In this document: positions 888 through 32,155 of the stretch, in pieces
Layout: each line of letters opens with the position of its first letter
Position numbering within the stretch: the first letter of the stretch is position 1
NCBI GenBank assembly: GCA_022865885.1
Contig: JALHSQ010000226.1
Location: 1-64,000, forward strand
From: Candidatus Bathyarchaeota archaeon
GTDB taxonomy: Archaea > Thermoproteota > Bathyarchaeia > Bathyarchaeales > Bathycorpusculaceae
Length of the DNA: 64,000 nt
Reading direction: 5' to 3'
The notes under the pieces: generated by a model
Databases searched by the model: none
Told to the model about the DNA's origin: nothing
What the model saw: the letters and a program-made list of their open reading frames with translations, nothing else
Made by a program: the position numbers and the translations under genes

Positions 888-911
888 AGGAATGATAGCG
901 CACGCATACGC

Positions 912-3472: not shown

Positions 3473-3562
3473 CGTTTTTCACATGATTTTCATTAACTTG
3501 CGGCCTACATCTTTTTATTCAAAAAACACATATATTAATACTGAAAGACGGAACTGATTCGA

Positions 3563-3940: not shown

Positions 3941-3942
3941 CC

Positions 3943-4557: not shown

Positions 4558-4602
4558 TGAAACAGCAAAGCTAAATCCTATTTACCGCACTAAGATAGAA
4601 CC

Positions 4603-5304: not shown

Positions 5305-5325
5305 TTCACTTAGGAGACCGTGCCA

Positions 5326-5880: not shown

Positions 5881-5894
5881 AGCTAAACACATCG

Positions 5895-6767: not shown

Positions 6768-6799
6768 ACTCTCTAACCATTTGACTTAAAAACACTTGC

Positions 6800-7975: not shown

Positions 7976-7979
7976 GAAG

Positions 7980-8609: not shown

Positions 8610-8698
8610 TACCTCACCTGTCTGATGACCACCACTTGCTATAGAGGGACCTGTCTTTTAACCTTGAATCTGAGTAAAGGTCTTACAGGAGGCTTAAA

Positions 8699-10497: not shown

Positions 10498-10657
10498 GCA
10501 TTAACAATCTGGCAGCAGCATCTTCAGATGATTTTTCTCTTTGGCATGACGTTCGAAGAATAGTTTTTATCTATACCAGAGTCGCGTTTGAGTTCCGGCG
10601 GATTCTCTATCGTAAATGATAAAAGCGTGTGGGCTACACCTCAAGAAGGGATATTTT

Positions 10658-11957: not shown

Positions 11958-12018
11958 GTGGTTTCTTTTATAAACGTTTTTGGATAATTAGTTTTCCACA
12001 CCACTTGGAAGGGTTAAG

Positions 12019-12780: not shown

Positions 12781-12848
12781 ACGAATCAGCTATCTTCTTA
12801 GTGCCCTACCTCTCAATTTTCAAAAAATGCTGGCAACAACTGCTGTTT

Positions 12849-13622: not shown

Positions 13623-13628
13623 CTTTTC

Positions 13629-13913
13629 CTATCCTCCATGCACAACTGATACGAAAACCACTTCATCCCCGTCCTTAAGCTTAGTCTCCAAACCATCTAG
13701 GACACTACTGTCTCTTCCATTCACGAGCATCAACGCGTTCGTCTTCGGATCGTCAAGCTCTGGATCAATCAACGCTCGCTTAAGTCTAGGATTCTCTTCA
13801 ACAATTCTCTTTACTATCTCTCTTAACGTGATAGTTTTTTCGAGCTTTATGCTGAATTTGCTTTTTCTTGACGCGGCACGTAAGGAGCCGACAAATCGAA
13901 CAGTCACAATCAT
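13629..13913 (-). CDS. MoaD/ThiS-like ubiquitin-fold protein (SAMP-like)
   Basis: A 94-residue beta-grasp protein ending in HGG, the diglycine tail that is adenylated by E1-like enzymes. The sequence order (VRFVGSLRAASRKSKF, then MLVNGRD near the middle and DGDEVVFVSVVHGG) is that of MoaD. It may carry sulfur for molybdopterin or tRNA thiolation or serve as a small archaeal modifier. The partner E1 is not in the window. Confidence 0.9.
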   Translation of the reverse strand: MIVTVRFVGSLRAASRKSKFSIKLEKTITLREIVKRIVEENPRLKRALIDPELDDPKTNALMLVNGRDSSVLDGLETKLKDGDEVVFVSVVHGG

Positions 13914-13934
13914 TGTTTTACACTTTATCCAACA

Positions 13935-18366: not shown

Positions 18367-19146
18367 CTAATTTAACTTTACTGAGAAAAAGCCTTCAAAG
18401 TTTCTTATTATCTGGTCAGCAACTTCCACGACATTCAGCTTCTTCATTTCTGCTATTGCCTCAACTATCGTCGGCATGAAGGCCGGCGTAGTCATTTTCC
18501 CTTTAAAGGGTGGTCTGGAAAAGCGTACTGGGCCGTCTGTCTCCGTCAGCAAGTTGGTCAGCGGGACTCTTCTAACAACGTCGCGTATGCCATTAGAATA
18601 AGCAGTTGGTGCTCCTTCGGTAATGAAGTATCCATTTTCCACAGCTTTGTCTAATGCGCTTATCGGGTTGCTGAACCAGTGCAGCAGCACTTTTCTTAGT
18701 TTGTAAGAGGGTAGCATATCGACGATCTGCGCTGTAGTTCCTCTTGAATGGATTATTACTGGTAAATCATGTTTCTCAGCCAAGTGCAGCAACTCGGTGA
18801 AAACCACTATTTGTTTGTCCCATATTTCCATGTACTTATTATCCAAGCCGATCTCGCCGATGGCAACTAGTGCCTTGTTATTCTTCTGTTCACTGATCAA
18901 CTCCATCATTCGCTGTAGTTCATCGTCTGGCAACGTCTGCACGTTCCATGGGTGTATTCCTAAGGCAGCGTAAACTAGGCCGGGGTATCGATCTGCTAGA
19001 TCAAGACTTGCACGACTTGTTCTAAGATCCATAGAGTTTGAAACTAGAGCAACAACATTCGTATTCCGTGCATCTGTTATGACTTCGTCTACGTGTTCCG
19101 AGTATCCTTCATCTGAAAGATGGATGTGTGAGTCAACGAATTTCAT
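18367..19146 (-). CDS. TatD family metal-dependent hydrolase/DNase
   Basis: A 259-residue amidohydrolase-fold protein. Metal ligands are visible as DSHIHL (His7, His9), IGEIGLD, IIHSRG, LLHWFS and TETDGP. TatD enzymes act as 3'-5' exonucleases in DNA repair and turnover; some archaeal relatives may have other substrates. It stands alone on the minus strand. Confidence 0.9.
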   Translation of the reverse strand: MKFVDSHIHLSDEGYSEHVDEVITDARNTNVVALVSNSMDLRTSRASLDLADRYPGLVYAALGIHPWNVQTLPDDELQRMMELISEQKNNKALVAIGEIGLDNKYMEIWDKQIVVFTELLHLAEKHDLPVIIHSRGTTAQIVDMLPSYKLRKVLLHWFSNPISALDKAVENGYFITEGAPTAYSNGIRDVVRRVPLTNLLTETDGPVRFSRPPFKGKMTTPAFMPTIVEAIAEMKKLNVVEVADQIIRNFEGFFSVKLN

Positions 19147-19432
19147 GTCTTTCCGCAGCTTTCACTAGACTACATTGAATGGGTTTTTATGATTTCGCTT
19201 TCCTGTCGAATGGTTTAGGCATTAGCGGTAGCTTTCGGCAAGTAAGAAACAATAAACGTTAGATAGGGCTTTAGAAGGATTTTGTGAAGGTTTTGGTTTT
19301 TGTTTAAGCGTTTTCGGCATTCTTCTTCACTTCCTTATTTAACGTAGGGGAAATCGTGCGTTCTGAAGGTAATAGAGGCTATGTTTAGACTGTTCGACGT
19401 AAAACCATATAGAAAAGACGAGTAAACACGCT
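19147..19432. other. Intergenic stretch, no gene seen
   Basis: Roughly 290 bases upstream of TatD, AT-rich with T-runs; the dispersed repeat copy 3 follows from about 19430. No open frame, tRNA-like arm pair or clear promoter other than that expected for TatD was found. Confidence 0.4.
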
Positions 19433-19576
19433 TTGGGTCTCTATATCAAGACTATTGGAGATGTCTCCCGAAGTCCCGAACTTTTTACGTTGTTCCATAG
19501 ATATCCCATTAACACCATACCGAAACTAGCTTATAAAGAATATGTCGAAAGCGTAGAACAGAAAAACTAAAGCTAA
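19430..19576 (-). repeat. Dispersed repeat, copy 3 (inverted)
   Basis: Read on the minus strand, this segment follows the stop of the gene at 19577 and matches 945-1060. The 32 bases at 19533-19564 are the exact complement of 954-985; the TCTGTTCTACGCTTTCGACA core is followed by GATATCTATG and a GGAGATGTCTCC palindrome (19457-19468) in the same order as copy 2. Overall similarity falls off on both sides. Confidence 0.75.
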
Positions 19577-20122
19577 TTATTGTCTTTTGCTATGTTTCTT
19601 GAAATTCTCAAGTTCTTTCCGTTTTCTCTCCATTTCTTCTTGCACTTTCTTCAACTGTTCAAATTCTTCCTTCATTAATTCTTGAACGTCTTCAGTAGCA
19701 CTCCCTACCACAACGAAGAATCCAAGAATGGAGAAGCAGAATAGGAGTATTAAGAGGGCTTCTGCTCCTTGATTCTCCACGGCATTTGTTAGCCAAAACA
19801 GAGAAAAAAAGGCAGTTATGAAAAAGCCTGCGAGAACGAACTTAACCCGAGAAGTAAGATATGTTGGTAATGCTTTCATCGAGGCGATTTCAGACCCTAT
19901 TGCTTTCAACTGTTCAGCCCCTTTATATGATTCTTCTGGAGTAATGTTCTCCTTAGCGTTGTCAAATTCCGTCCTTTTTTCTTGTGCTGTGACTAACCTT
20001 CTTTCGAATATTCTGTTTCGCAATTGAGCAACCAAAGATAAGATTGCTATTATAAGACCTGCACTTGCAATACTTGCTGTGAATATGGTTGAAAGCAGGG
20101 TTTCACTTATCGTATCAAACAC
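19577..20122 (-). CDS. Membrane protein with C-terminal coiled coil
   Basis: A 181-residue protein of unknown family if begun at GTG 20122 (FDTISETLLS). The open frame runs further upstream to 20383, but that part is cysteine/arginine-rich, overlaps the next gene and does not look coding. There are three hydrophobic segments: near residues 8-30, 90-110 and 118-140. Charged helical stretches follow, ending in a lysine/glutamate coiled coil (VQEEMERKRKELENF). It probably sits in the cytoplasmic membrane with a cytoplasmic tail. The start is uncertain. Confidence 0.6.
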   Translation of the reverse strand: MFDTISETLLSTIFTASIASAGLIIAILSLVAQLRNRIFERRLVTAQEKRTEFDNAKENITPEESYKGAEQLKAIGSEIASMKALPTYLTSRVKFVLAGFFITAFFSLFWLTNAVENQGAEALLILLFCFSILGFFVVVGSATEDVQELMKEEFEQLKKVQEEMERKRKELENFKKHSKRQ

Positions 20123-20312
20123 ACCTAAAACAAAAGGGTATCTCGTCCACGATAAAAGGATTGTCCTAGTAGAATATCTTCTGACAAATCTTAAATCTGC
20201 ACAGCAACAGAAGACTCTAGCGCGACTCAGAAAGGAAAATGAACGGCAAGGGAAAACTTGGGGAGAGAAGACCACCCTTCCATAAATACCACCATTTTTC
20301 ACTCTTTTATGA

Positions 20313-20912
20313 CTACTTGAAAAGATAGGGCAGATAGTCAACCATGAAATTGGCAATGAACCAAGCCAATAGGAATGCCACACCCATTATCCCACCAGCT
20401 ATACATGCTCGGGCATAGGCAATGTACCATTTCCCTTCTGGAAATACTCTTCTGAAAAAGGCGTACAACTTGAATCTTCTATCTAGTAGAATAAAAACTC
20501 CTGCAAACAGCAAGAAGACAACCACAACAACTAACCCTTTGAAATATAGTGGATACGTCATATAAAGGTAAACAGCTACTAGAAAAAGAAATCCTTGCGA
20601 TAGCCACTCGAAAATCGCCAAAGTGAAGGACGCTTCTTCACTCTTAGGAAATGTTCTCCAAAGTTCAAAATCTAATAGAATCAACATTATGAAAGTGATG
20701 AAGGATAGAAGTTCTGCATGTTCGAGTCTTGTGAAAAGGGCGGCAAGTCCACCTGTCACACCAATTGCCGTGAATAACTTGTCGTTCTGGTTGATGAAGG
20801 CTTTCAATGTGACCCTCTTTTTTGCTTCAGGAATTTGAGTCTGCATTTCTTCGGGCAACGCAATTCTCCTATAACTTCTATCACCTTCGCTAAATAAAAG
20901 AGTAACATCCAC
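20313..20912 (-). CDS. Polytopic membrane protein, unknown function
   Basis: A 199-residue protein with about five hydrophobic segments (roughly residues 48-66, 68-86, 104-122, 125-145 and 168-190). A charged N-terminal 40 residues precede them. I do not recognise the family. It lies upstream of the other membrane gene in the same direction and borders the mobile element on its left, so it may be either host or element cargo. Confidence 0.65.
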   Translation of the reverse strand: MDVTLLFSEGDRSYRRIALPEEMQTQIPEAKKRVTLKAFINQNDKLFTAIGVTGGLAALFTRLEHAELLSFITFIMLILLDFELWRTFPKSEEASFTLAIFEWLSQGFLFLVAVYLYMTYPLYFKGLVVVVVFLLFAGVFILLDRRFKLYAFFRRVFPEGKWYIAYARACIAGGIMGVAFLLAWFIANFMVDYLPYLFK

Positions 20913-20986
20913 ATTCTAAACCAACACTCTAAGATTCAAAAACTATATGCCCACTCTTTAACCGTGGAGCGTAGTCATTTTGGTTG

Positions 20987-21160
20987 ATGGTGTCTGGTAA
21001 TGGTGGGGGAGTGGTGTATACTGTCAGTTTGATTGGAACCGTTGAGTAGCTAGGTGTTTCAGTTGATATCCCGAAAGTTGTGATGGTATGTCAACGGTGA
21101 ATTTGGACTGTATCGTTTTGGTCAATTGATGACTGTTCATCATCTAGGCAGTCAGTTGAC
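20987..21160 (+). pseudogene. Broken plus-strand reading frame in element left arm
   Basis: From ATG 20987 the frame reads VSGNGGGVVYTVSLIGTVE, meets TAG at 21047-21049, and continues open as LGVSVDIPKVVMV to TGA at 21098. A shifted frame then gives a further short coding-like piece (STVNLDCIVLVN). The composition (Val, Gly, Thr) suggests a secreted or pilin-like strand-rich protein now broken. This is tentative, since the pieces are short. Confidence 0.3.
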
Positions 21161-21223
21161 TAACCACTAGGGCTAGTGGGTTTCTAATAGTGGACACTAG
21201 GACTCCATGGACAAAACCGTAAC

Positions 21224-21233
21224 GTTTATAAGG
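21224..21233 (+). promoter_or_regulatory. TATA box for the 40-residue gene
   Basis: GTTTATAAGG matches the archaeal TATA consensus. A start site about 25 bases downstream (near 21255) would give a short leader before GTG 21280. Confidence 0.45.
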
Positions 21234-21279
21234 AAGCACGACTACGGACTGTGGACAAACTCAAATCAAGGCGATAACG

Positions 21280-21402
21280 GTGAACACGGATAGAATCAAG
21301 CTCAGATTAGTTAAGCAGGTGCTTAAATCGAAGACCAGAGACCAGACCAACAGCAAGTTGAACCAACAGAAGAAGAGAGAGTTGTCACCAACTACTACAT
21401 AG
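21280..21402 (+). CDS. Small basic protein of the element (40 aa)
   Basis: GTG 21280 to TAG 21402 encodes 40 residues rich in Lys, Gln and Thr (NTDRIKLRLVKQVLKSKTR at the start). AAGGCGA stands five bases before the start and a TATA box about 50 bases upstream. The basic helix could bind nucleic acid. I recognise no family; shortness keeps confidence low. Confidence 0.4.
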   Translation: MNTDRIKLRLVKQVLKSKTRDQTNSKLNQQKKRELSPTTT

Positions 21403-21846
21403 GGCCACTTTTTTCGAGTTTCTTGAACCCCACATTATCGAGTTGCATTCAACCTTTTTTCAGAGGTTATTGAATGATTATCGCTAAACATTTCCACACT
21501 CTTTCAATTGACTAACAGAATGACTCACATATGGACTCCCAGAAACCAGTATAGATGTTGCTTAAACCGAACCATAGAAATAGCTCAAAAATTGGGCTAG
21601 TCAATCAAATGATAATTACTTGGACTAGGGGGGAGTTCATGAGGAATACAGAAAGTGTAACCCTTAAAAGAAAACCAACGATACATCTATGATTCAACAA
21701 CAATACTCAGACTCTATGAACCCTCAGTATGTAGTGTATTGTAAAGGTTTAGAGTAAAGGTCTGTTGGGTCCGTTAGCTAGTATCTACACATGATTAAGC
21801 CAGTCGTCATGAAAAAAGAAGGAAAATTGCCAGTGAAATGAAGCTC
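21403..21846. other. Element left arm, no supported gene
   Basis: About 440 AT-rich bases. Two tiny overlapping frames starting at ATG 21639 (17 codons, after GGGGGGAG) and about 21690 (21 codons) have a Shine-Dalgarno and an ATGA overlap, but are too short to claim. Nothing else is seen. Confidence 0.3.
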
Positions 21847-22096
21847 TCAAGACGATGTTTTCTTTACTGTGGTTGTCTCTGTAATTGTGACTTCTATTCC
21901 AACGGACTGACCAGCCAGCCAGTTTATCGCCTTCTCCATTGCGTCACTCAATTGGTCGTGTTCCTTGGAGTAGCCATTTCCTCTAGCTATGATTTTGCTT
22001 TTCTCGCTTATCTGAAAGGTCATGTGAACACTCTCAAAGTCATCTATGAGAATTCCCAGTCTTTAATGTTTGCGGTCAACTCTACGTCAAACCCAT
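21847..22096 (-). pseudogene. Frameshifted small gene in element left arm
   Basis: From ATG 22023 a 58-residue minus-strand frame reads TFQISEKSKIIARGNGYSK and on to TTTVKKTSS, ending at TGA 21849-21847. The coding look continues upstream in another frame (FDVELTANIKDW). One missing G near 22055-22057 would join the two as KDW-GILIDDFESVHMTFQ, and one missing T near 22087-22091 would connect to ATG 22096. The restored protein would be about 80 residues, acidic and helical in its second half. Two single-base losses in short homopolymers suggest decay or sequencing error. Confidence 0.45.
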
Positions 22097-22345
22097 GCCA
22101 AAACTGAAAAAACCCTCTCTCTCACCCTAGTTGCTGTGCTCAATTCAAAAGTGCTGTGTGGAATTCGTTTCTGGGCTACTAGACTTGAATAATATACTTT
22201 CTTACTTTCTCACTTGATAACAATACTGTCTGCTACTAGACTTCTCGGTTATCAATGTGAGCAAAGGCGAGCTGAAGTTTTGGGCGGTTTTTGGTGTTGC
22301 CCTCAGTTGATTGCTGTTGTTGCCGTTGTCTTGCTTCAAGACAGC

Positions 22346-22640
22346 CTAATGGAGAATCTCTCTGTTCAAGATTTCCACGCACGGGTCTCCAGCCACTTGA
22401 CGCTTTTCTATTATGAGCATCTCTTCAAGGATGCTGGACGTTTTACGGCGTTTCAGTATCCAACTCCACTACAGGGAGGTATTCAACTGGTAGGCGAATG
22501 CTTTGCGTTTCACGGTGAGCCAGCCAGTTCCGTCAAGTTCAAGAGGCTTTCAATTGTGTCAGTAGCATCGACCACAAGTGAAACCGTGTTAGGGTTCAAG
22601 TGTCAAGTCGTTGCTTTTGGAAATCGTAATCGTTGTTTCT
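22346..22640 (-). pseudogene. Multiply frameshifted minus-strand coding remnant
   Basis: Four coding-like pieces follow one another, each joined to the next by a +1 shift at a proline codon followed by a stop: CCC-TAA (22594-22589), CCG-TGA (22515-22510) and CCG-TAA (22448-22443). Read with the shifts, the product has TITISKSNDLTLEP, NTVSLVVDATDTIESLL, QSIRLPVEYLPVVELDTE and SSILEEMLIIEKRQVAGD in order, ending at TAG 22348-22346. No start codon is visible upstream. A 149-codon open frame on the plus strand covers the same bases but has poor composition (few charged residues). Confidence 0.35.
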
Positions 22641-22675
22641 TTTTGATTCTCTGGTTAAACTAATACTGCAACGAA

Positions 22676-22684
22676 GTATTTAAG
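22676..22684. promoter_or_regulatory. TATA-like box, possibly bidirectional
   Basis: TATTTAAGA on the plus strand precedes ATG 22712 and the 29-residue frame at 22762 by suitable distances. The complement (CTTAAATA) lies about 25 bases before the minus-strand remnant. Either direction is possible. Confidence 0.35.
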
Positions 22685-22761
22685 ACTTATGGGAGCACTT
22701 TCTTTTACACTCAATGGAGTCTGTGTCAAGCAAATCTTTACGTTTGTAAAGGAGAACATTG

Positions 22762-22851
22762 ATGAATGACAAGATAAAGGTAGAGGGTTGTGTGATGAGA
22801 AAGCGGAGTCAAAAAACTGAGATTGAAACGACCCCGCCAGAGAATCAATAG
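22762..22851 (+). CDS. Possible small element protein (29 aa)
   Basis: ATG 22762 to TAG 22851 encodes 29 charged residues (NDKIKVEGCVMRKRSQKTEI at the N-terminal end). AAAGGAGA lies six to eight bases before the start. It follows an 11-codon frame starting at 22712. It is too short for a family assignment. Confidence 0.35.
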   Translation: MNDKIKVEGCVMRKRSQKTEIETTPPENQ

Positions 22852-23096
22852 TATAATACACTGTCAAACTATTTAAGGTTTACGGTTGATACGGTCATGA
22901 TTAACCATCTGTTTAGCTGACGGGTCTTTCTCTGTGTCTCATTTAAGTAACTGCTTAATAATTGTGGACTTCGACAGTGATGGTCTTTTCCATTACGGCC
23001 AGCTTCGGCCAAATAACTGTCTAGATTGAGCTTTGTTTCAGAATTTCAGTCCAGAATTTAACCTAAATAACATTTTCGATACAATCGCACCATAAA

Positions 23097-23105
23097 ACTT
23101 AAATA
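23097..23105 (+). promoter_or_regulatory. TATA box of the element's main gene run
   Basis: ACTTAAATA lies about 50 bases before ATG 23155. GGGGAGAT (about 23139-23146) is the ribosome site of the first gene. Confidence 0.45.
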
Positions 23106-23154
23106 CTAGAAATGCATTATATAGTGATAATTAAACTTGGGGAGATATTAAGAT

Positions 23155-23454
23155 ATGAAAGAACAGAAAGAATTCACTACCCTCTCAATCGACTTGACTA
23201 CATCAGACTATTTGGACTACCTTTCGGCAATCACGGGTAAGCCCAAAGCAACTGTGCTCAAGATGATACTGGAACAACTGGTCTCAATCGGAGCAAGCAT
23301 GAAGAAAGGAACCATCTTGAGGTTCGAGTCAAGTGTGCTCACGAAGAGCGTCACAATAACGTTTGATGGAGCGTCAAGGTTGATGATGGGAAGTTTCGAA
23401 GCAGAATCCGATGAAATCGGAGATAAAAAACTAAAGGAGAAGTTGAAAGAATGA
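23155..23454 (+). CDS. Element protein, ribbon-helix-helix-like N-terminus
   Basis: A 99-residue protein. TTLSIDLTTSDYLDYLSAIT followed by KPKATVLKMILEQLVSIG has the strand-helix-helix plan of MetJ/Arc-type DNA-binding domains, but no family was recognised for certain. The C-terminal 45 residues are different and end in a lysine-rich tail. It is the first gene of the plus-strand run and overlaps the next by four bases (ATGA). It may regulate the element or belong to its replication module; this is inference. Confidence 0.65.
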   Translation: MKEQKEFTTLSIDLTTSDYLDYLSAITGKPKATVLKMILEQLVSIGASMKKGTILRFESSVLTKSVTITFDGASRLMMGSFEAESDEIGDKKLKEKLKE

Positions 23455-24086
23455 GTAACCCAGATTTAAGTGAAGAACAGAAAGAAGTTGTTGAGAGAGA
23501 ACGCAAAAAGTTCAAAGAAGAGTCTGGCAGAGAAGTTGTGGTTCGTGTAGAATCAGAAACAGCTTTTGAACAGCAAAAAGTCTGGGATTCCATGAGGCAG
23601 ACTCTCAAAGACGAATACGAGAAAAGGAGTTTGGTTTTTGATGCAGATTCAATCAAAACAAAAGAACAGTTAGAATCAGAGTTCGCAAAGCTTCAAAAGA
23701 TGAAACACGATGAGGACCAAATAGATGCTCTCTCGAAAAATCAGAGAGATGACATCGGAGAAAGAGGTCTAGAGGGCAATTATGCTAGTCAAGAGAAACA
23801 GAAACCCACTAGAGAGCGTTCTACTGAATACCTCAAAAGACTAGCTTCAGACTTAGGAGATATCAGCTTAGTAGAATTCACAAGCGAGAAAGAGATGCTC
23901 AAATTTTTGGAAGATGCGTCTCACGATTCAAACTTTGAAAACCAGAAACAAGCTGAAAAGCTGTATGCTCAAGTTTTAGCGCACACTCTAGAGCGAAACC
24001 AGTCTATTGAATATACTGGTCTCGGAAAAGATTTCGGAAAGAAAGAGGGGAAATGGAAGAAAAAGCATTCTGGAGAGATTGATTGA
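23451..24086 (+). CDS. Charged coiled-coil protein of the element
   Basis: A 211-residue protein rich in Glu, Lys and Gln with long predicted helices and no hydrophobic core segment (SEEQKEVVERERKKFKEES at the start). No family recognised. It overlaps the preceding gene by four bases, and the next start lies two bases after its stop, so all three are translated from one message. It could be structural or a scaffold. Confidence 0.65.
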   Translation: MSNPDLSEEQKEVVERERKKFKEESGREVVVRVESETAFEQQKVWDSMRQTLKDEYEKRSLVFDADSIKTKEQLESEFAKLQKMKHDEDQIDALSKNQRDDIGERGLEGNYASQEKQKPTRERSTEYLKRLASDLGDISLVEFTSEKEMLKFLEDASHDSNFENQKQAEKLYAQVLAHTLERNQSIEYTGLGKDFGKKEGKWKKKHSGEID

Positions 24087-24087
24087 A

Positions 24088-24606
24088 ATGAGAAGATACA
24101 TCGAAAGAATAGTGTTTAAAGACGATAATTTCATGATAGAACGGTCTTTCCCAGACAAGCAAAAGCCACATGAGTTTTTGCCAGTTTCAGAATGGCATTT
24201 CGTTAAGAATTGCTGTGCGATTGCTCTAGTGAAAAGGCAAACTGAAAATCTCGAAAGTTTAGATGAACCTTCAAACGTCACATTCTACGAGATTGCTGTT
24301 TCTTTTGACGTTGCTGATTTGCCGATTTCGAGGTCAATTTATCTGAAGACCGAGCAGACAAAGAAGATTATTTCGGAAAATCTCAGAGTTAGCGAAACGT
24401 ACACTAGAGTCTATGTGAAGAATTTGGAAAACGGAATTCTGCAAGAAGCACAATTTGAGGATAGCGAAAGTTTCCCCTTCAACGTTGTGAAAGTTTCGAA
24501 ATCGAGACCTAAACGTGTTACTTATGAACGTGCGAAAGAGCTTCTGAAAAGCGGTCAATTGCTTGGAATTTTCAACGATAAAGAACTCAGCGAGGTCTTG
24601 GTCTAA
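24088..24606 (+). CDS. Element protein of unknown function (172 aa)
   Basis: ATG 24088 is chosen because GGAGAGA (24072-24078) stands nine bases before it; the open frame extends upstream inside the previous gene, but that part is not supported. The protein mixes strands and helices (RYIERIVFKDDNFMIERSF, later VTFYEIAVSFDVADLPISR). It has one Cys-Cys pair (NCCAIAL) and no recognised domain. It lies mid-run in the element. Confidence 0.6.
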   Translation: MRRYIERIVFKDDNFMIERSFPDKQKPHEFLPVSEWHFVKNCCAIALVKRQTENLESLDEPSNVTFYEIAVSFDVADLPISRSIYLKTEQTKKIISENLRVSETYTRVYVKNLENGILQEAQFEDSESFPFNVVKVSKSRPKRVTYERAKELLKSGQLLGIFNDKELSEVLV

Positions 24607-24607
24607 A

Positions 24608-25303
24608 TTGCCATATTCTATAAAACTCACGAAGAATCAAAAGGTGCAATTTAGGAAAGAAATAACTGAGAGACTGGAAACGTTCGAACCTGAAAAACTG
24701 CTAATAGCCACAAAGTTCATAAACGAAATGAACGAGCGAAAGAAAAACAAAAGCATCACTCATGACGAAATGCTCACGATTGTTAAAGCTGTAGTCTGTG
24801 AAGACGAATATTGCAGAAAGGTGATTCAAGAGGTTCAACAGAAAAACGCTCTTGAATTCGATTTGGAAAAGGCGATCTCGGAATTTCTCAATTCAAAACA
24901 ATTGCCAAAAACTAACCCTTCAGAACGATTGCAGACCCTAAAAATCGGTCAAGAGACAATCTTGGATAGAAAGAGAATGTTGATAACACAAGCTGAAGGA
25001 CTCGACCCTGACCCGGTTTTTCTGGGAAAAAGTGAAGACGGGAGAGAAAGTATTTACGAAACTTATGTGAAATGCCGAAACAAGCAATGCGGAAAAGTGT
25101 TCAAGTCGTTCAAAAATGAGATGTTCGACTCACCTAACTGTAGGGAGCAATGGGTCAAGGAAAACCAGAACGATAGACCTCTTGTTCAAGAGGAATTTTC
25201 AGAATTAAATTCAGAATCATGGGAATGGGAAAGGATAGGGTCAAAATCAGATAGCGAACTTGGTGTTTACGGAGTTTTCAGGAGAGTGTTCAAAAATGAC
25301 TGA
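24608..25303 (+). CDS. Element protein with Cys cluster (231 aa)
   Basis: The start is taken as TTG 24608, just after the previous TAA, since the longer frame lies within the preceding gene. A helical N-terminal half (ERLETFEPEKLLIATKFINE) is followed by a region with CRNKQCGKVF and PNCREQW (about residues 155-185), which may bind zinc with three or four cysteines. No family recognised. The following gene overlaps its end. Confidence 0.6.
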   Translation: MPYSIKLTKNQKVQFRKEITERLETFEPEKLLIATKFINEMNERKKNKSITHDEMLTIVKAVVCEDEYCRKVIQEVQQKNALEFDLEKAISEFLNSKQLPKTNPSERLQTLKIGQETILDRKRMLITQAEGLDPDPVFLGKSEDGRESIYETYVKCRNKQCGKVFKSFKNEMFDSPNCREQWVKENQNDRPLVQEEFSELNSESWEWERIGSKSDSELGVYGVFRRVFKND

Positions 25304-25505
25304 AGACGAAATTCAAGGTTGTGACAGTTACAGACAATGCCCAAGTTGCGGTCACATTCAATTCTTCAATAATCGACCCAGACTTGACTCTTTGAATTTG
25401 CTAGAAAGAAATTATCAGAGTGACCCTAGAAGCTTAAGAGAGCATGAGACAGACGAAAAAACCATGATTTGCGAGAAGTGTGGAGCTAGAATTAGTTTAT
25501 GTTGA
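25296..25505 (+). CDS. Small zinc-ribbon protein of the element (69 aa)
   Basis: ATG 25296 overlaps the preceding stop; GGAGA lies about ten bases upstream. Two knuckles, CPSCGH (near residue 15) and CEKCGA (near 60), make a zinc ribbon around a helical insert. Such small ribbons are frequent in archaeal viruses and plasmids and often bind DNA. The 72-base inverted repeat follows 33 bases later. Confidence 0.65.
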   Translation: MTEDEIQGCDSYRQCPSCGHIQFFNNRPRLDSLNLLERNYQSDPRSLREHETDEKTMICEKCGARISLC

Positions 25506-25538
25506 CAAAAAACACAAGAAACCACGAAAAAGGCAATC

Positions 25539-25610
25539 TGACTGGAGAGACGAATTTCCCAGAACACGTTTCGGACACTGGTTCTGACGGTTCCTCAGTC
25601 TCTCCAGTCA
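25539..25610. repeat. 72-base nested inverted repeat
   Basis: TGACTGGAGAGAC (25539-25551) and its exact complement GTCTCTCCAGTCA (25598-25610) enclose a 46-base loop. The loop contains a second pair, CAGAAC (25560-25565) and GTTCTG (25581-25586). It lies in the only sizeable gap in the element's intact gene run. It could be a replication origin, recombination site or RNA structure in the message. Confidence 0.75.
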
Positions 25611-25629
25611 CAAATTGAAGTGTGATTTA

Positions 25630-25911
25630 ATGCGAAGGCCACGGAAATGTCAATTTGACGGATGCAACGAGACTTACACGCCTAAAAGTGGCCTTGCGAA
25701 GTTTTGCCCTAGACACCAAACCCGCAATAGGTCGCACAGTCGGTTCTGTCTGCAATGTGGCAAAGAGATAATTTTCGACCCAAAATTCTATAGAAATCGC
25801 CAACAATTCTGTAACCAAGACTGTTTGCTGAAATTCAGAATAGCGCAATACGCACAAAGGCAAAAACAGAACGTTGAAAGACAAAAGGAGTGTGGCAAAG
25901 TTTCTGTGTGA
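25630..25911 (+). CDS. Zinc-finger protein of the element (93 aa)
   Basis: The start ATG 25630 gives RRPRKCQFDGCNETY. Two possible sites are seen: C-x4-C with FCPRH (near residues 7-30) and FCLQCGK...FCNQDC (near 39-64). The basic and glutamine-rich C-terminus (QYAQRQKQNVERQK) could bind nucleic acid. An in-frame TTG 25615 is an alternative start. It overlaps the next gene by about 38 bases. Confidence 0.6.
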   Translation: MRRPRKCQFDGCNETYTPKSGLAKFCPRHQTRNRSHSRFCLQCGKEIIFDPKFYRNRQQFCNQDCLLKFRIAQYAQRQKQNVERQKECGKVSV

Positions 25912-26074
25912 CGAAGCTCGTTTTCAACTTGAAAGTTATCTGTTAAGTTCAGACCTAAACAAGAAATTTCCAGTAGGATTAGACGACCATCTAGCTGTTT
26001 GTGTTGGTTGTAGAAAATACAAAAAACTGATAATTAGACAGATTGAGTGCAGTAGAAAGGGACTTTTGGCATGA
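25874..26074 (+). CDS. Small element protein with CVGC motif (66 aa)
   Basis: The open frame begins at TTG 25874; GTG 25892 is possible. It contains a C-x2-C pair (CVGCRKYK) preceded by HLAVC, reminiscent of zinc-binding anti-sigma-like motifs (H-x3-C-x2-C), but no family can be claimed. It overlaps the next gene by four bases (ATGA). Confidence 0.5.
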   Translation: MKDKRSVAKFLCDEARFQLESYLLSSDLNKKFPVGLDDHLAVCVGCRKYKKLIIRQIECSRKGLLA

Positions 26075-26304
26075 GTCAAACCAGATGTGACGAAGATGGT
26101 TACGTTCACGTCAAGTGCGCCTATTGCCATAAGAGTTTCAAGTTTCTTTGTGCTAGTCCAGAATTCGTTGAGTCAATCAGTTTTTGCTCGGAAAAGTGTC
26201 GAAACCTCTATTACTGGTTCAAGGGAAAAGCGGAATTCGAAAACATGTATGACGGAGAATTCAAAGAAGGGAAAAAGGTGTTAGAACATACCGACAAACG
26301 ATAA
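26071..26304 (+). CDS. Zinc-binding element protein (77 aa)
   Basis: Two cysteine pairs, CAYCHKSF (near residue 16) and FCSEKCRN (near 38), form a treble-clef or FLYWCH/MYM-like knuckle. The order C-x2-C...FCSxxCR is common in archaeal and phage zinc-knuckle proteins. The C-terminal 25 residues are charged. Confidence 0.6.
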   Translation: MSQTRCDEDGYVHVKCAYCHKSFKFLCASPEFVESISFCSEKCRNLYYWFKGKAEFENMYDGEFKEGKKVLEHTDKR

Positions 26305-26311
26305 GAATTAC

Positions 26312-26617
26312 ATGCGGGATTATCAACGGAAAAGACGGGAAAAATTGAAAGAACAGCGTGAAGCTGAAAATCCTAAGCCTTTGCGAGAGAAATATATGTC
26401 GTGGGAAGAATTTCACGAGAAACAGCCGTTGCTAAGTTACCGTGAATTTTTGGAGTTGAAAACCGAACATGAACGTCCGTGTCCACCATGCTCAGAAACT
26501 TTCGCTGTTCCGAAAGAAATCAAGGGTGCTGGGATTTGGAGTGAACCAGATGACGAAGATGACGAGACCGAATGGGAAAAACGTGCTCGGCGAAAGCGAG
26601 AAGCTGAAGAACCATAG
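26312..26617 (+). CDS. Basic/acidic element protein (101 aa)
   Basis: Begins RDYQRKRREKLKEQ, an arginine/lysine helix like that of small phage 'YMREY-RRR' proteins. It has one CPPC near residue 56 and ends in an acidic stretch (EPDDEDDETEWEKR). It closes the plus-strand gene run and converges on the zinc-ribbon gene at 26650. No function can be assigned. Confidence 0.55.
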   Translation: MRDYQRKRREKLKEQREAENPKPLREKYMSWEEFHEKQPLLSYREFLELKTEHERPCPPCSETFAVPKEIKGAGIWSEPDDEDDETEWEKRARRKREAEEP

Positions 26618-26649
26618 TCTAAGGTGATTGAACGTCAAAAAAGAAGGGT

Positions 26650-26805
26650 TTAGAGGAAGAATAGTTCTTCTAGTTCTGAGTCTTCGTTAAAACAGTCGTC
26701 GCAAACTTCTTGAAGGTCACTTTCAGCTAAATTGTGTTCATCGTCTCGTAATTCTCTACTGCAATGTGCACAGTAACGTTTCTTCTTTGTTTCATTGCTT
26801 GACAT
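26650..26805 (-). CDS. Small zinc-ribbon protein coupled to integrase (51 aa)
   Basis: ATG 26805 to TAA 26652-26650 encodes 51 residues with CAHC (residues 12-15) and CDDC (35-38), a two-knuckle zinc ribbon, and an acidic tail ending ELEELFFL. Its start lies 14 bases inside the integrase 3' end, so it is probably translated after the integrase from the same message. It may be an excisionase-like or regulatory accessory factor; this is inferred from position only. Confidence 0.65.
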   Translation of the reverse strand: MSSNETKKKRYCAHCSRELRDDEHNLAESDLQEVCDDCFNEDSELEELFFL

Positions 26806-27991
26806 GGTTATCACCATTGCCGTTTTCAAGCATTTTTTCGTATGCTTTTTGTTCTTCTTTTTCTCTGAGTTTTGCCATGAGTCTCAAAGCTTCGAATGGA
26901 CTCAGTTTGGTTTCACCTTTTTCTCCAGAAACATGCAGTTCAGCTTTTGCTTTTTCAAGTATTTCTTTGCCATAAATTTCAGACATGGTTTTCATCATGG
27001 TTCTGAGTTCTTTCACTTCTGCTTGCAATTCCTCAATTCGCTTGTCCTTGCTTTCCATTTCGCTCTTGATTGTTCCGTTGCTGAGACTGAGAGCCTCTTC
27101 ACGAACCTTGACGAATGCCTCTTTCAACTTCACGTCTCCCAGATACGTTTCTGTAGCTTGACCGATTGACTTTCCAACTAATAGCTTACTGATTTCGTGG
27201 TCTATGCCGATTGAATAAGCCGTGCTCAGAAATCTTTTGCGTAGCGAGTGGAAAGTGAACCTCTTGTTTTTGGGAATAATGACCTTCGCTTTTTCCGTGA
27301 CTCTGTGCAGTTCATAGTTAATCGAATCGTTGTCCAAGTGTCCCTCGTGGTTTGTTTGGAAAAGGTATTCATTCTTAGGGTTCAACGTGGGCAAATAGGC
27401 TCGAAGCAATTCCGCACTTTCTTTTGAGATAAAAGTCGAACTGAGCACTTTTTCCTTTTCTGTGATTTTCTCAATTGGAATAGGCGTTTCTTGGTCGAGG
27501 GTAGGCAAATCTGAAACCTTCAGAACCATGAAGTCAGAAATTCTCCAAGAAAGGTCTAATCCAAGACTTATGATGGTTTTCATTCTCAAATCAGAGACGT
27601 TGAAGATTCTTCGCAATTCCTCAATTTTCGGTATGTAACTGTGTGTCGTGGGTGGTGGTGTTGCTATGTTAGGAGAGATTGATAGACCGAAATACTTGAA
27701 GAATTGAATTACCCCTAAAGTGTTCGACCTTGCACTTGTCAGGGCATAAGGTTCTCGTGTGTCTGTCTTTGTGATTTGCCATTTATAGTAAGCCTCAACC
27801 TCTCTGTCAAAATGCTTGACCTTCTCAAAGTTTTCGCTCTGAATATCCGCACGTCTTTCCGCTAAGACCGTATCAGCGTCTTTTCCGTAGTATTCTAAGA
27901 AAAGTTCTAATCCACGTTTGTAGCTTTTGAGCGTGTTCTTCGCTTTGGCTTTCTGATAGTATTCGTAGAATCTTTCTTTCGCATTCTTCAT
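26792..27991 (-). CDS. Tyrosine recombinase (integrase) with coiled-coil tail
   Basis: A 399-residue site-specific recombinase. A SAM-like core-binding domain spans roughly 1-105; the catalytic domain has R150 (LSWRISD), H248-x2-R251 (FHSLRKRF) and the nucleophile Y283 (TETYLGD). The position usually His/Trp after the second Arg is Lys274 (LLVGKSI), a known kind of variation in archaeal enzymes. Residues 310-390 form a long charged coiled coil, unusual in length. TATA-like CATATAAGG lies upstream. The gene is continuous, not split as in SSV-type integration. Confidence 0.92.
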   Translation of the reverse strand: MKNAKERFYEYYQKAKAKNTLKSYKRGLELFLEYYGKDADTVLAERRADIQSENFEKVKHFDREVEAYYKWQITKTDTREPYALTSARSNTLGVIQFFKYFGLSISPNIATPPPTTHSYIPKIEELRRIFNVSDLRMKTIISLGLDLSWRISDFMVLKVSDLPTLDQETPIPIEKITEKEKVLSSTFISKESAELLRAYLPTLNPKNEYLFQTNHEGHLDNDSINYELHRVTEKAKVIIPKNKRFTFHSLRKRFLSTAYSIGIDHEISKLLVGKSIGQATETYLGDVKLKEAFVKVREEALSLSNGTIKSEMESKDKRIEELQAEVKELRTMMKTMSEIYGKEILEKAKAELHVSGEKGETKLSPFEALRLMAKLREKEEQKAYEKMLENGNGDNHVKQ

Positions 27992-28230
27992 TTCGTTTTC
28001 TGTTTCTGTTTGTCTCTCCTTATATGGTATTGCTTTGGAAAGACTGAATTTCTTCGGGTTTTCTCCCGAAATCCGTCATCACATGACCGTTTTCTTCTAA
28101 TGGAAAGAAGGGTCAAACTGGCTTAAAAAGACTGATAGAAGTTGCTTCTAAGGCTTGTATACGATTGGTCTTGGAACGAAAAGCTAGCTATAATGTAAAG
28201 CTTTTAGATAAAGCCGACATAAAGAGAATC
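27992..28230. other. Right border region of the element
   Basis: Contains the integrase promoter, a hairpin TTCGGG/CCCGAA (about 28056-28073) and, on the plus strand, a TATA-like GCTATAATG (28186-28194) for the next gene. No direct repeat with the left border longer than chance was found. Confidence 0.4.
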
Positions 28231-28803
28231 ATGTCGCTTGTTCCAGCTTTTGAGTTAGGCTTATGGAACGCTTGGATTTTCACTCTCCCTATCATAATCA
28301 TTTCCATTCTTGGTCCCAAGATATTGGGTAAAAGGGCGTCAGAAGAGGTCTCAAGCTTTACTAAGAAGGTGAAAACAGTAAGCAATCTATCTTCTTTGAT
28401 TATACTCTTACCATTTGCTTATAGTATATTCTTGCCATTGAAACTAGACACTATTTGGTTCGTTATTGGTTTACTCATTTATTTGGTAGCCATGTTCTTT
28501 GTAGTCACAGGGTTATTGAATTTTGCCACTACACCAGTAAATGAGCTAGTCACTAGAGGTGTTTATAGTATTTCAAGAAATCCTGGGTATCTTGGCATGT
28601 TTTTGGTGAACGTAGGCATCGGTGTAGCCTGTCTTTCCTGGGTTTTTCTATTAGTGGCAATTGTAAATTTCCTTTTGCTACGCTGGTATGTAGTGATTGT
28701 TGAGGAACCCTTCCTTATAGAGAAGTATGGAGTTACATATCGTGAATACATGAATAGAACTCCAAGATGGATAGGAATACCGAAATCAGGGAAAAAAGAC
28801 TAA
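28231..28803 (+). CDS. PEMT/ICMT-like membrane methyltransferase
   Basis: A 190-residue integral membrane protein with about five hydrophobic helices. The C-terminal half has GVYSISRNPGYLGMF and EEPFLIEKYG..YREYMNRTPRW, the SAM-binding signature of isoprenylcysteine carboxyl methyltransferases and phospholipid methyltransferases. The archaeal substrate is unknown. ATG 28231 is chosen because a TATA box lies at about 28188; TTG 28165 and 28171 would place the TATA inside the gene. It overlaps the convergent GNAT stop by four bases. Confidence 0.8.
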   Translation: MSLVPAFELGLWNAWIFTLPIIIISILGPKILGKRASEEVSSFTKKVKTVSNLSSLIILLPFAYSIFLPLKLDTIWFVIGLLIYLVAMFFVVTGLLNFATTPVNELVTRGVYSISRNPGYLGMFLVNVGIGVACLSWVFLLVAIVNFLLLRWYVVIVEEPFLIEKYGVTYREYMNRTPRWIGIPKSGKKD

Positions 28804-29351
28804 TACCCTACTCTGTGGTTTATCTCAAGAACTTTCAGTATTTTTGGTTCTTTCCATTCTTCTCTGAGAATGCCGTAAAGATACAGGTCAGCCCAATTCC
28901 CCCAAGCAAATAGCCCTTTTCGTATTCTTCCTTCTCTCTGGAAACCAGCCTTTCCCAGAACCTTCTGTGACGCTATGTTCTCTATGTGAGTTGTCGCCTG
29001 AATTCTGACTATGTCTTTAGACATGAAAAGGTAGTCTACGGCAAGTTGGGCAGCTTCAGTGCAGTAGCCCTTACCTCTCTCGCTAGAGACCAATACGTAG
29101 CCAATCTCCCAATATGGTCCAACAAGACCCATTCCCAAATAGCCAATCCTGCTTCCATCTTTTTTCAGTATCAGAAACCACACTTTTTCAGAGCCCAGTT
29201 TTTCATACCTTTTCTCAATATCTGTCTTGGACTCTTGCGCGTCTAATGGGTTGTATCTTCCTGCGAATTCAGGGTTGTTGAACCACTCAGAAAGTAGAGG
29301 CAAATCCTCTTTCTCGGCGACCCTCAGATTCACATTTTTTCCTTCAAGCAA
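28800..29351 (-). CDS. GNAT family N-acetyltransferase (RimJ/RimL-like)
   Basis: A 183-residue GNAT. NLRVAEKEDLPLLSEWF at the start, SERGKGYCTEAAQLAVDY (acetyl-CoA loop, about 88-105) and ASQKVLGKAGFQREG near the end are the family marks. Its C-terminus closely matches the partial GNAT at 3-164. Such enzymes acetylate ribosomal protein N-termini, amino sugars or antibiotics; the acceptor is unknown here. Confidence 0.92.
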   Translation of the reverse strand: MLEGKNVNLRVAEKEDLPLLSEWFNNPEFAGRYNPLDAQESKTDIEKRYEKLGSEKVWFLILKKDGSRIGYLGMGLVGPYWEIGYVLVSSERGKGYCTEAAQLAVDYLFMSKDIVRIQATTHIENIASQKVLGKAGFQREGRIRKGLFAWGNWADLYLYGILREEWKEPKILKVLEINHRVGY

Positions 29352-29581
29352 CTCAATTCACCACTCAAGCCAAAAGAACTGATTCAGCTATAACTTTTCC
29401 GCACCAGTTTTTTGTCCGTCAGGGATACCTAAGGTGGGCTTATTTTTTGCAAGATAGGGCAGAATTGGGCTTGGTGTGGTCGTTGGGACTTGAGCCAGGA
29501 TAAATGGCGATGTCTCCCGAAAGGGGGCTTCTAAGGTCTGTTTTCCCCACTTTCTCATGATGCTTCGTGGCTAACAAGGAT

Positions 29582-30070
29582 CTACATTGTAGACGCTTTG
29601 AGGTTAGTCAACCATTGGCGGTCACTAGCCGTTTGCATAGCGCGCTCGCGCTCGGCCGGTTGATCGGCTATCCTTCTGAAGATCTCTTTGAGCTCGTGTT
29701 TGGATTGGCCATTGACTCTGGTGAACAGTTCCAAGAACTCCTTGGCAGAGAGGTTGGCTCCGTAACGTTTGGATAAGAGCGAGCCGACCAAACCCAGAAC
29801 CACGTCTGCGCCATCTCCTGAAACCTCGCTTAAACCGTTGTAGAAGGTTTCGGGATCGTCTATTAGAACCTCGTATGGGTCTTTTCCGAATTTCTGTTTC
29901 AACTGAAAGGATATTACTATCGCTTGAAAGTTCGAACCCATAGTCTCGGTCGTTACCTCTTCAAAGACTCTTTGTGCTATTTTGTGCAGTAAGTCTTTAT
30001 CCTCGCGCGCGCTGTTGTCTTCGAAAATCTCTTGCGCCGTCTTCTTGGCTAATGTCTTCTCTTTACTCAT
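29582..30070 (-). CDS. NitrOD5-like output domain protein
   Basis: A 162-residue soluble helical protein. The central FEEVTTETMGSNFQAIVISF through KFGKDPYEVLIDDPETFYNGL and SLLSKRYG is the pattern of the archaeal NitrOD5 output domain as I recall it. Such domains are found next to or fused to KaiC-like ATPases and sensor proteins. Here the gene starts 15 bases after the KaiC stop, so it is likely its signalling partner. Confidence 0.65.
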   Translation of the reverse strand: MSKEKTLAKKTAQEIFEDNSAREDKDLLHKIAQRVFEEVTTETMGSNFQAIVISFQLKQKFGKDPYEVLIDDPETFYNGLSEVSGDGADVVLGLVGSLLSKRYGANLSAKEFLELFTRVNGQSKHELKEIFRRIADQPAERERAMQTASDRQWLTNLKASTM

Positions 30071-30084
30071 AAAAACCAGCCAAG

Positions 30085-31566
30085 TCAGGTTTGAACATTC
30101 AACCCGCTTCCAGTGATTTCGAAGGATACTGTTTTCGTCTCGTGTTCAGAGCCTCGAGTCTTCAGTACTAGCATTTCCCTTCCCATCCTGTCTCTGATTT
30201 CAAAATAGCGCAGAAGGACGATGTTGTCTGCCAGGGTCGAAATTTCGGATGATCTGGCTGCTTCGATGGTTCCGTGGGTTGATGTTAGGAGCACTGTTAT
30301 GCATTTCCGCTTGGACAAGAGCTGAAGATAGCGTGCAAAGGTGACAAAGTCCTCCATTGACATCAGATGCCGCATTGCTGTGACGGGATCAAAGGCAAGG
30401 ACGGTAGGCGCGTGACGGTCCAGCATGTCCTTGAGAATCTTGTAGTAGTGAAGAGGGGTAAGCGCCTCAGGCACATAAGAGTCAATGACGAAGTGGTCAC
30501 CCAGCTTCTGCGGGTTCAAACCTACACTTGCCATAGTCCTAATGATCTGACCGATCGGTTCTTCTAATGAGATGTACAAGGCTTTCTCTCCTTTCAGGGC
30601 ATTTGCAGCCAAGAAGTGCAGGCACGTTATCGTTTTGCCAACGCCGCTTGGGCCCTCAATCAAAGTTACTGACCCTCTGAAGACACCGCCATGCGTCATT
30701 GTGTCCAATCCCTCCACGCCAGTGGGGAGTTTCTCCGTCGGGGAACTAAGAGTATCCGCTCTCTTTGGCAGCACGATTGGTTCGATTCCGCCGTACTCTT
30801 TGTCGATGAGATACTCGAAGGAGAAGCGGTCTAAAGGAGTTCCTCTCATCTTGGCGATTGTGAGTCTTCTATTTACTGAGTTTGTTTTGTCCATGTGAGT
30901 CAGAAGAATAACGCCGTCTGCGACGAATTCTTCCACGCCCAATCCTGTCTTGCCTTCACCATATGGAATTTCACCCAGAGCCATCGTTGTAACACCAAGG
31001 CTTTTTGTCACCTTGCCCAAGACAGTGTGAAGGAACATGCGTGTCTCAGCGGCGCCCATAGTCTGCAGAAGGGCGCTCAATGAGTCGATTACAAGTCTCT
31101 TCGCCTTCAACTCGCTGGTTGTTTTCAGGACCTTTTCCGTAATATTTTTCAGAGCATCCTCGCCGCGCATCGTCACCATATCCATGAACTTGAAGAGTCC
31201 TTTTCTCTCCAAACTCCTCATGTCCATCCCAAGCGAAAGCATATTCCTGTAGAAGTCTTCCCTGTTCTCGGCAAACGAAACATAGACACCCTTCTCACCG
31301 TACTTCACAACGCCGTTAAAAAGAAACTGCGTCGAAAAAACAGTCTTGCCACTTCCGGCGTTCCCCGTCAACAGGATAAGGCTACGAGCTGGGAAGCCTC
31401 CTCCCAGAATCTCGTCAAGTTCAACGATTCCCACAGGAGACCTCTTCGATTCAGTCGGCTTCTCTGACAACGGCGATTGCTTGGAAACGACGTCAGCTTT
31501 TTCTCTCGGCTTACTTTCTGGCCATTTCACCGAAATCGGGGGAGGGTTCTCAAGCTTAAGACTCAT
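30085..31566 (-). CDS. KaiC-family double RecA-domain ATPase
   Basis: A 493-residue protein with two RecA-like domains. Walker A motifs are GNAGSGKT (68-75) and GPSGVGKT (305-312); the matching Walker B strands are RLVIDSLSAL and TVLAFDPVTAM. Each domain is introduced by the KaiC phrase 'GI/GVxxLDxxxxGG'. This is the KaiC layout, but archaeal relatives act in signalling, motility or DNA-related roles rather than a proven clock; KaiA and KaiB are absent. It forms an operon with the NitrOD5-like gene. Confidence 0.9.
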   Translation of the reverse strand: MSLKLENPPPISVKWPESKPREKADVVSKQSPLSEKPTESKRSPVGIVELDEILGGGFPARSLILLTGNAGSGKTVFSTQFLFNGVVKYGEKGVYVSFAENREDFYRNMLSLGMDMRSLERKGLFKFMDMVTMRGEDALKNITEKVLKTTSELKAKRLVIDSLSALLQTMGAAETRMFLHTVLGKVTKSLGVTTMALGEIPYGEGKTGLGVEEFVADGVILLTHMDKTNSVNRRLTIAKMRGTPLDRFSFEYLIDKEYGGIEPIVLPKRADTLSSPTEKLPTGVEGLDTMTHGGVFRGSVTLIEGPSGVGKTITCLHFLAANALKGEKALYISLEEPIGQIIRTMASVGLNPQKLGDHFVIDSYVPEALTPLHYYKILKDMLDRHAPTVLAFDPVTAMRHLMSMEDFVTFARYLQLLSKRKCITVLLTSTHGTIEAARSSEISTLADNIVLLRYFEIRDRMGREMLVLKTRGSEHETKTVSFEITGSGLNVQT

Positions 31567-31933
31567 AACAGATCCCTACATTTCTCAACTTTGACCAAAT
31601 GGTTCAACGCCCGAATATAAGCCATTTATGAAAACTAGATACAGATTACTGAGATTGAAATTCAGGTTCCGAATACGAAAAGCTCGCGTATTCCTTTCGC
31701 TCTTTTTCTGAGCTTCTGAGAAATCACTTATGATTCTGTCCTCAGAAAAGTCTATGATGACTCCTTGTATGTGTTTAATCTTCTGCACAGAACAGTCTCG
31801 GTTTTCCTCTTGTTTAGGCTTTATGAACCCTAAATCCGCATTATTGCTATGTTTAAACCGATTCTGCGCAAACTCTGAATCGCAAAGGCTAAATACGGCT
31901 TTAAATACAAAAAAGGGCTACGGAGAAGTCTTT
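31567..31933. other. Intergenic promoter region between KaiC and histone
   Basis: About 370 bases between divergent genes. It holds the histone TATA (31899-31907) and, on the minus strand, an open frame (31585-31788, Lys/Ile-rich, GTG start) that I cannot confirm as a gene. No RNA gene seen. Confidence 0.4.
31899..31907 (+). promoter_or_regulatory. TATA box of histone gene
   Basis: CTTTAAATA lies 27 to 35 bases before ATG 31934, a distance that gives an almost leaderless transcript. GGAGA at 31922-31926 may also serve as a ribosome site. Confidence 0.6.
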
Positions 31934-32155
31934 ATGGTTGATCTAAATTTGGCTGTAGCCCCCATGCATAGACTGTGCAAAAAAGCCGGAGCTGACAGAG
32001 TTAGCGAAGCAGCAGCGAAAGAACTGGCGAAGGCACTAGAGGAAATCGGCGTGAAAATCGCAAAAGAAGCACTGGATTTTGCAATGCACGCAGGAAGAAA
32101 AACCATAAAATCCGAAGACATCGAAATAGCGGCTAAGAAAGTCATGGGTCGATAG
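31934..32155 (+). CDS. Archaeal histone
   Basis: A 73-residue histone-fold protein. [19 protein letters not shown] (residues 21-39), then [20 protein letters not shown] and ending AAKKVMGR, reproduces helices 1-3 of HMf-type histones, including the R-T pair of the L2 loop (GRKTIK). It has no tail. Dimers wrap DNA into small or extended nucleosome-like fibres. Cys16 is an unusual residue near helix 1. The start ATG is placed 27 bases after the TATA box; the longer open frame upstream is not coding. Confidence 0.95.

Follow-up and report, generated by a model that had tools for sequence, protein, structure and literature searches.

An insertion in the histone control region of a Candidatus Bathyarchaeota archaeon: a probable member of a family of integrating elements that appears to be undescribed

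What is the crowded run of small genes on contig JALHSQ010000226.1, where does the DNA to which it belongs begin and end, and is the recombinase gene beside it part of the same unit? The stretch analyzed here, called the window in the following, comprises 64,000 nt of this contig (positions 1 to 64,000, forward strand) from assembly GCA_022865885.1 of a Candidatus Bathyarchaeota archaeon, a metagenome-assembled genome (MAG) of 240 contigs with an estimated contamination of 7.6%. A first-pass annotation had proposed an integrated element of small zinc-binding proteins at positions 20913-28160 (7.2 kb). We compared the window with 25 relatives from the Bathyarchaeia that possess a TatD ortholog, with 163 genomes of the order, and with 257 genomes of the class, whereby G numbers designate genomes and L numbers loci. 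The region most probably represents an integrated mobile genetic element of ~12.6 kb, a divergent and likely non-autonomous member of an apparently undescribed family that is defined by three adjoining genes, termed B, C, and D.

The extent of the element was deduced from its flanks. In 24 of the 25 relatives, a histone gene adjoins the TatD-family hydrolase gene in divergent orientation, with a gap of 128-276 bp, or of ~1.1 kb in two relatives that have an extra gene in between. Compared with these relatives, the window genome stands alone, as the two genes lie 12.8 kb apart. Thus, 24/25 relatives carry the empty-site allele that is expected for a tyrosine-recombinase element, which bears out the proposal that the segment is integrated. 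Empty-site alignments with L097, L099, and L102 reach position 19273 and restart at 31884, with an overlap of 20 bp. This overlap corresponds to the histone core promoter, and the right junction therefore retains a B recognition element (BRE) and TATA box in front of the histone gene; the segment from the promoter to the ATG is also preserved at this end. The core-promoter consensus from the 24 relatives, located 5' of the start codon, reads AAAcG-TTAAATA-tTGCtTTAAAtA. The left and right junction copies, AAACGTTAGATAGGGCTTTAGAA and AAAGGCTAAATACGGCTTTAAAT, form a direct repeat with 17/23 identical positions and an exact 7-bp core, GGCTTTA. They match the 17-mer of the relatives at 13/17 and 14/17 positions, whereas no other site in the element exceeded 12 (~25,000 positions scanned). 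On these alignments, 19254-31906 (~12.6 kb) is a foreign insertion in the histone control region, and these bounds replace those of the first-pass annotation, which were too narrow. The BRE/TATA sequence at the right junction would then serve as the working histone promoter.

That the segment consists of lineage-specific host genes, or that it is an assembly chimera, we regard as very improbable. The fragmentation and estimated contamination of the MAG speak for such an origin, but the segment is absent at the same place in 24/25 relatives, and a target duplicated at both junctions would be unexpected from misassembly. Two other ideas about the ends were discarded: a transfer RNA (tRNA) gene as integration target, as there is no tRNA gene within the window, and internal direct repeats as alternative ends (e.g., 19447/29496), since 13 kb of sequence would contain about as many 13-bp matches by chance alone. 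As a separate observation on this interval, a metalloprotease-like gene (HExxH) fills the space between TatD and the histone gene in G024 and G006 (L095 2900-3900, L096 10980-12000, and L101), and an apparent remnant of such a gene is present in G002.

In order to place the element, the concatenated gene run was searched in the 163 genomes of the order, which led to D at two G095 loci and to B in G126. In the loci of both genomes, B, C, and D adjoin each other, with a recombinase and a P-loop ATPase in the vicinity. The search with this ATPase then revealed further members with the order B-C-D, namely L135 (a contig from IMG/VR), L150 (G116), and L151 (G106). Altogether, this gene order is common to six loci besides the window; one is on the IMG/VR contig, and the other five belong to genomes of the same taxonomic order. 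It is also present in the window, where profiles built without the window copy find B with an E value of 4e-11 and D with one of 8e-7. The HerA/B204-like ATPase is located beside B-C-D in 6/6 of the other loci; the window copy does not share this feature. A tyrosine recombinase was recognized in 4/6 of them, L124 (weak, E 0.003), L125, L126, and L150, whereby that of L150 belongs to the archaeal phage integrases (PF16795). Since other elements likewise combine B-C-D with a recombinase, the pairing of gene run and recombinase in the window, which had already been suggested, is not accidental. The family is rare: with the first profile, 3 of the 257 class genomes yielded D, and 9 have the ATPase. 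The contigs of G095 match records of Candidatus Bathyarchaeota MAG PLYI01. The family could not be named by matches to Pfam, PHROGs, or records of phages or plasmids, which agrees with the earlier statement that none of the proteins matched a familiar one. The B-C-D elements apparently constitute an undescribed family of integrating elements.

A second member could be placed by its empty site. The element of G126 spans ~9.66 kb (L126 4976-14632) and is missing at the same place in G123 and G124, which present the empty-site alleles. Its place is an intergenic region between divergent genes, directly 5' of a NUDIX gene; one end is ~130 bp away from the recombinase, and the ATPase is found at the other; no convincing end repeat was found for it. 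L135 ends next to a tRNA-Gln gene. The members of the family thus use different recombinases and sites. No direct repeats marking the ends were found for the elements of L124, L125, and L150. Because the recombinase types differ, with PF16795 in L150 and in the window a subgroup other than that of the sister elements, module and recombinase are exchangeable parts. Near histone genes in L036/L097 and L040/L101, the C profile gave weak matches, which were judged to be likely chance coiled-coil matches. Apart from this, a repeated translated motif, FQFPLLGFLLCI, in L129 85-1400 (G128:C56) suggests an array of clustered regularly interspaced short palindromic repeats (CRISPR) at a contig end.

The recombinase of the window, INT, matches the Pfam family Phage_integrase with an E value of 9e-11, and its catalytic motifs are intact by inspection, with R (SWRISDF), HxxR (HSLR), and Y (ETYLG). 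The minus-strand tyrosine recombinase of the first-pass annotation was thus confirmed, as was the zinc-ribbon gene coupled to it, K. The C-terminal tail of INT is charged and probably coiled-coil; it had been called unusual, but tails of a comparable kind occur in the recombinases of related elements. At L128 / G116:C69, a recombinase gene is likewise overlapped by a homolog of K, and another small zinc protein follows an INT relative in G041:C23. K possibly acts as a recombination helper of INT. Neither INT nor D was found in viral contigs. Several observations were made around the INT relatives. The closest ones at L022, L023, L024, L025, and L026 (33-38% identity) resemble solo integrases that are not accompanied by the gene run. 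The recombinase at L021 4817-6021 (G015:C66), the nearest relative (43%), is split into two reading frames and represents a decayed copy. Three loci with INT relatives (L021 4373-4612, L025 9156-9341, and L024 7747-8703) share a conserved region of a small protein, MHNSNRxLxQVTLSGE.... In addition, two adjoining genes are ~75% identical between G041 and G000 (L029 3958-6553 and L032 2116-4771); both loci also hold related integrases (~52%) and possibly belong to another shared mobile element.

There are several points that weigh against a single element of the B-C-D family. The promoter copies at the junctions mismatch at 6/23 positions. Window C alone is not significant, as it ranks first in the profile built without the window, but only with an E value of 0.12. 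The structure model of the family ATPase has low confidence, with a predicted local distance difference test (pLDDT) score of 62. INT belongs to another subgroup than the recombinases of the sister elements and has close relatives without the B-C-D module; no homologs of the gene run were found beside these. The start of INT and the right junction are separated by 3.9 kb, so that the gene is not near an end, compared to ~130 bp in G126. This distance is the main weak point and leaves room for a composite origin, as does the right third of the segment (28.1-31.7 kb), which holds passenger-like, host-like genes, a higher guanine-plus-cytosine (GC) content, and one cassette that is found elsewhere in G024.

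According to such a composite origin, a smaller INT element (~19.3-28.1 kb) and a separately mobilized KaiC-U-GNAT-methyltransferase segment would both have arrived upstream of the histone gene. In favor of this, INT is internal to the segment. The GC content drops from ~0.46 outside to 0.38-0.42 across 19-29 kb of the window, which speaks for an inserted element, but it is back at host level over 29.5-31.7 kb, in agreement with a composite. The KaiC-U pair (window 29505-31719) shows ~90% DNA identity to L094 1985-4232 from G024, which belongs to another genus; in that genome, the pair occurs by itself at another locus and has a ZIP transporter and a matrixin-like protease as neighbors. The two KaiC copies differ at 34/494 third codon positions (7%), compared to 220/411 and 207/393 (~53%) for two host genes; this much lower divergence indicates that the exchange of KaiC between these genera took place long after their split. 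However, the duplicated promoter encloses the entire 12.6 kb, without a third copy near 28.1 or 29.4 kb. We therefore consider the composite island a serious alternative, although one with the odds against it, and treat the segment as one element in the following.

The features of the element and of its flanks are compiled in Table 1. The plus-strand run at 23155-26617, which had been noticed before, consists of nine open reading frames arranged head to tail that mostly overlap or abut, by 4 bp at B/C and H/I and by more at D/E, E/F, and G/H, with one 109-bp gap at F/G. The claim of at least four proteins with paired cysteines held, as these occur in E, F, G, and I as well as in the minus-strand K, and H and J have one pair each. 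The description as an element of small zinc-binding proteins holds only in part, since such proteins are present, but most of them are peculiar to the window copy, and none of the family-defining proteins B, C, and D is of this kind. In L125, L135, and L151, D is followed by a zinc protein; it was rejected as a fourth gene common to the module, since it has no significant match in the window.

Table 1. Features of the inserted segment and of its flanks in the window (positions in nt of the window).
Feature	Position	Strand	Remarks
TatD-family hydrolase gene, left host flank	18367..19146	-	orthologs in 25 relatives, 53-74% identity
Left junction copy of histone BRE/TATA promoter, AAACGTTAGATAGGGCTTTAGAA	19254..19276	+	empty-site and promoter alignments; exact core GGCTTTA at 19267-19273
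A0, membrane protein ending in a coiled coil	19577..20383	-	no known family
A, multi-pass membrane protein	20313..20912	-	no relative in the 257 genomes of the class
Gene-poor stretch	20913..23154		
Inverted repeat, 18 nt (89%), in gene-poor stretch	22675-22692 / 23090-23107		just 5' of B
B, small protein, module gene 1	23155..23454	+	ribbon-helix-helix-like pattern by inspection
C, coiled-coil protein, module gene 2	23451..24086	+	position kept in six other loci; window copy matches weakly
D, beta-rich protein, module gene 3	24088..24606	+	BLAST E 5e-12 to L124
E, orphan protein with cysteine pairs (C-x4-C)	24563..25303	+	no relative in the 257 genomes of the class
F, zinc-ribbon protein	25260..25505	+	ATG at 25296 likelier start than TTG at 25260
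G, protein with three cysteine pairs	25615..25911	+	
H, small protein	25874..26074	+	weak anti-sigma zinc-finger likeness (E 0.0015)
I, MYM/FCS-like zinc-finger protein	26071..26304	+	match below cut-off
J, charged protein	26312..26617	+	cysteine pair is CPPC
K, zinc-ribbon protein	26650..26829	-	overlaps 3' end of INT
INT, XerA-like tyrosine recombinase with C-terminal tail	26792..27991	-	
Isoprenylcysteine-methyltransferase-like membrane protein	28165..28803	+	passenger-like; NCBIfam E 1e-10, below cut-off
GNAT acetyltransferase	28800..29351	-	passenger-like
U	29582..30070	-	accompanies KaiC genes in several genomes
KaiC-family double ATPase	30085..31566	-	third-codon comparison with G024
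Right junction copy of histone BRE/TATA promoter, AAAGGCTAAATACGGCTTTAAAT	31884..31906	+	empty-site and promoter alignments; exact core GGCTTTA at 31897-31903
Histone gene, right host flank	31934..32155	+	single PF00808 match detected in the host genome

In line with the first-pass annotation, profile searches recognized no replication, packaging, or capsid gene in the window element, and no helicase either. The HerA/B204-like ATPase had no match anywhere in the host genome and no relic in the element, and within the 2.2-kb gene-poor stretch neither a hidden ATPase, nor another protein relic, nor an RNA family was found. Because the ATPase is absent, the window copy is probably reduced or non-autonomous. 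The inverted repeat at 22675-23107 possibly marks a regulatory or origin region.

Whether the B-C-D family consists of viruses or plasmids was considered on the basis of the ATPase and of D. In Pfam, the ATPase gives only a weak DUF87/HerA match, and the fold of its model resembles HerA (E 5e-4) as well as B204, the packaging nucleoside triphosphatase of STIV2 (E 7e-4). The model of D is beta-rich and of moderate confidence (pLDDT 79, predicted template modeling score 0.73), without a significant fold match in PDB or BFVD. These data could be taken to mean that the family consists of proviruses, with D or C as a capsid component and the ATPase as a genome-packaging motor, for which the likeness to STIV2 B204 and the beta-rich model of D would speak. 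Yet HerA scores as well as B204 against the ATPase model, D lacks a fold match, and the ATPase occurs in no virus record except for one IMG/VR contig, the capsid genes of which belong to a separate head-tailed provirus. A provirus family thus appears rather doubtful. No capsid protein of the window element was found by profile matches in Pfam and PHROGs, whereby D was the one modeled for structure among the window proteins. The main gene-run proteins also gave no Pfam or PHROGs match to structural hallmarks of Bathyarchaeia viruses, for which no dedicated VP1-3 search was made. The IMG/VR record, G257, was dismissed as virus evidence, since its capsid-type genes belong to that separate provirus; a tRNA-Gln gene lies between the head-tailed provirus and B-C-D. 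Terminase, portal, and tail-type genes are located on the same 28-kb contig as the module (L156, bases 1-14435).

Somewhat better placed, if still short of an even chance, is the explanation that the family comprises integrative plasmids, whereby the ATPase drives DNA transfer or segregation. This would agree with the HerA-like fold of the ATPase, with a D5-like primase-helicase that is also encoded in L124 (PHROG E 5e-63), and with the small membrane proteins that adjoin the module in L126 and in the window. On the other hand, the ATPase matches no phage or plasmid record, and no conjugation gene was recognized among the family matches. The pT26-2-type integrative plasmids of archaea combine an integrase, an ATPase, and small genes of unknown function, and the gene make-up of the B-C-D elements is similar. 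To the group of Sulfolobus turreted icosahedral virus (STIV), tailless archaeal viruses with FtsK/HerA-type packaging ATPases, the sister elements are connected by the predicted fold of their ATPase; no double-jelly-roll or other capsid gene was recognized, and the window copy has no such ATPase.

Archaeal tyrosine-recombinase integrative elements are known to target tRNA genes, coding regions, and intergenic regions, and a review of them does not mention histone genes (PMC8371274). Like the XerA-like integrative elements, the window element has a tyrosine recombinase, an att-like duplication with a 7-bp core, and an intact target gene sequence, but it differs from them by its target, the histone core promoter. 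No report of a histone promoter as integration target was found in the literature searched. Some of the described Bathyarchaeia viruses encode a tyrosine integrase (PMC10848311), and they share the host class with the window element; in contrast, their terminase, portal, VP1-3, and filamentous capsid genes were not recognized in the window element and its B-C-D relatives, with no dedicated VP1-3 search in the window.

How the element might work can be outlined from these data. INT most likely joined a circular form of the element with the histone promoter via the GGCTTTA core, perhaps assisted or directed by K. The site of the element itself would supply a replacement BRE/TATA, and the histone gene would in this way keep a promoter. 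By analogy, this would mirror the tRNA-targeting integrases, which leave the tRNA gene intact (PMC8371274). B is probably a regulator of the gene run, and C and D may be structural or DNA-handling proteins. Full members of the family probably move DNA with the ATPase, either by packaging or by transfer, and the window copy, which lacks it, would be helper-dependent or stranded. Toward the right end, the genes for KaiC, GNAT, and the methyltransferase would be passengers.

The mobile elements published for Bathyarchaeia, in the literature found, belong mainly to a few virus families. The present analysis delineates an element family by its conserved module, the D protein of which is without a match to known folds; two of the members were placed by empty-site comparison. 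We found no precedent for an integration into the promoter of a seemingly only histone gene with the promoter sequence being kept. It is a tentative idea that in this new archaeal integrative family one member attaches at the core promoter of the only histone gene, brings its own BRE/TATA, and, by swapping the promoter, could tune the main chromatin protein. The finding thus raises the testable question of whether a mobile element may alter the histone supply of its host.

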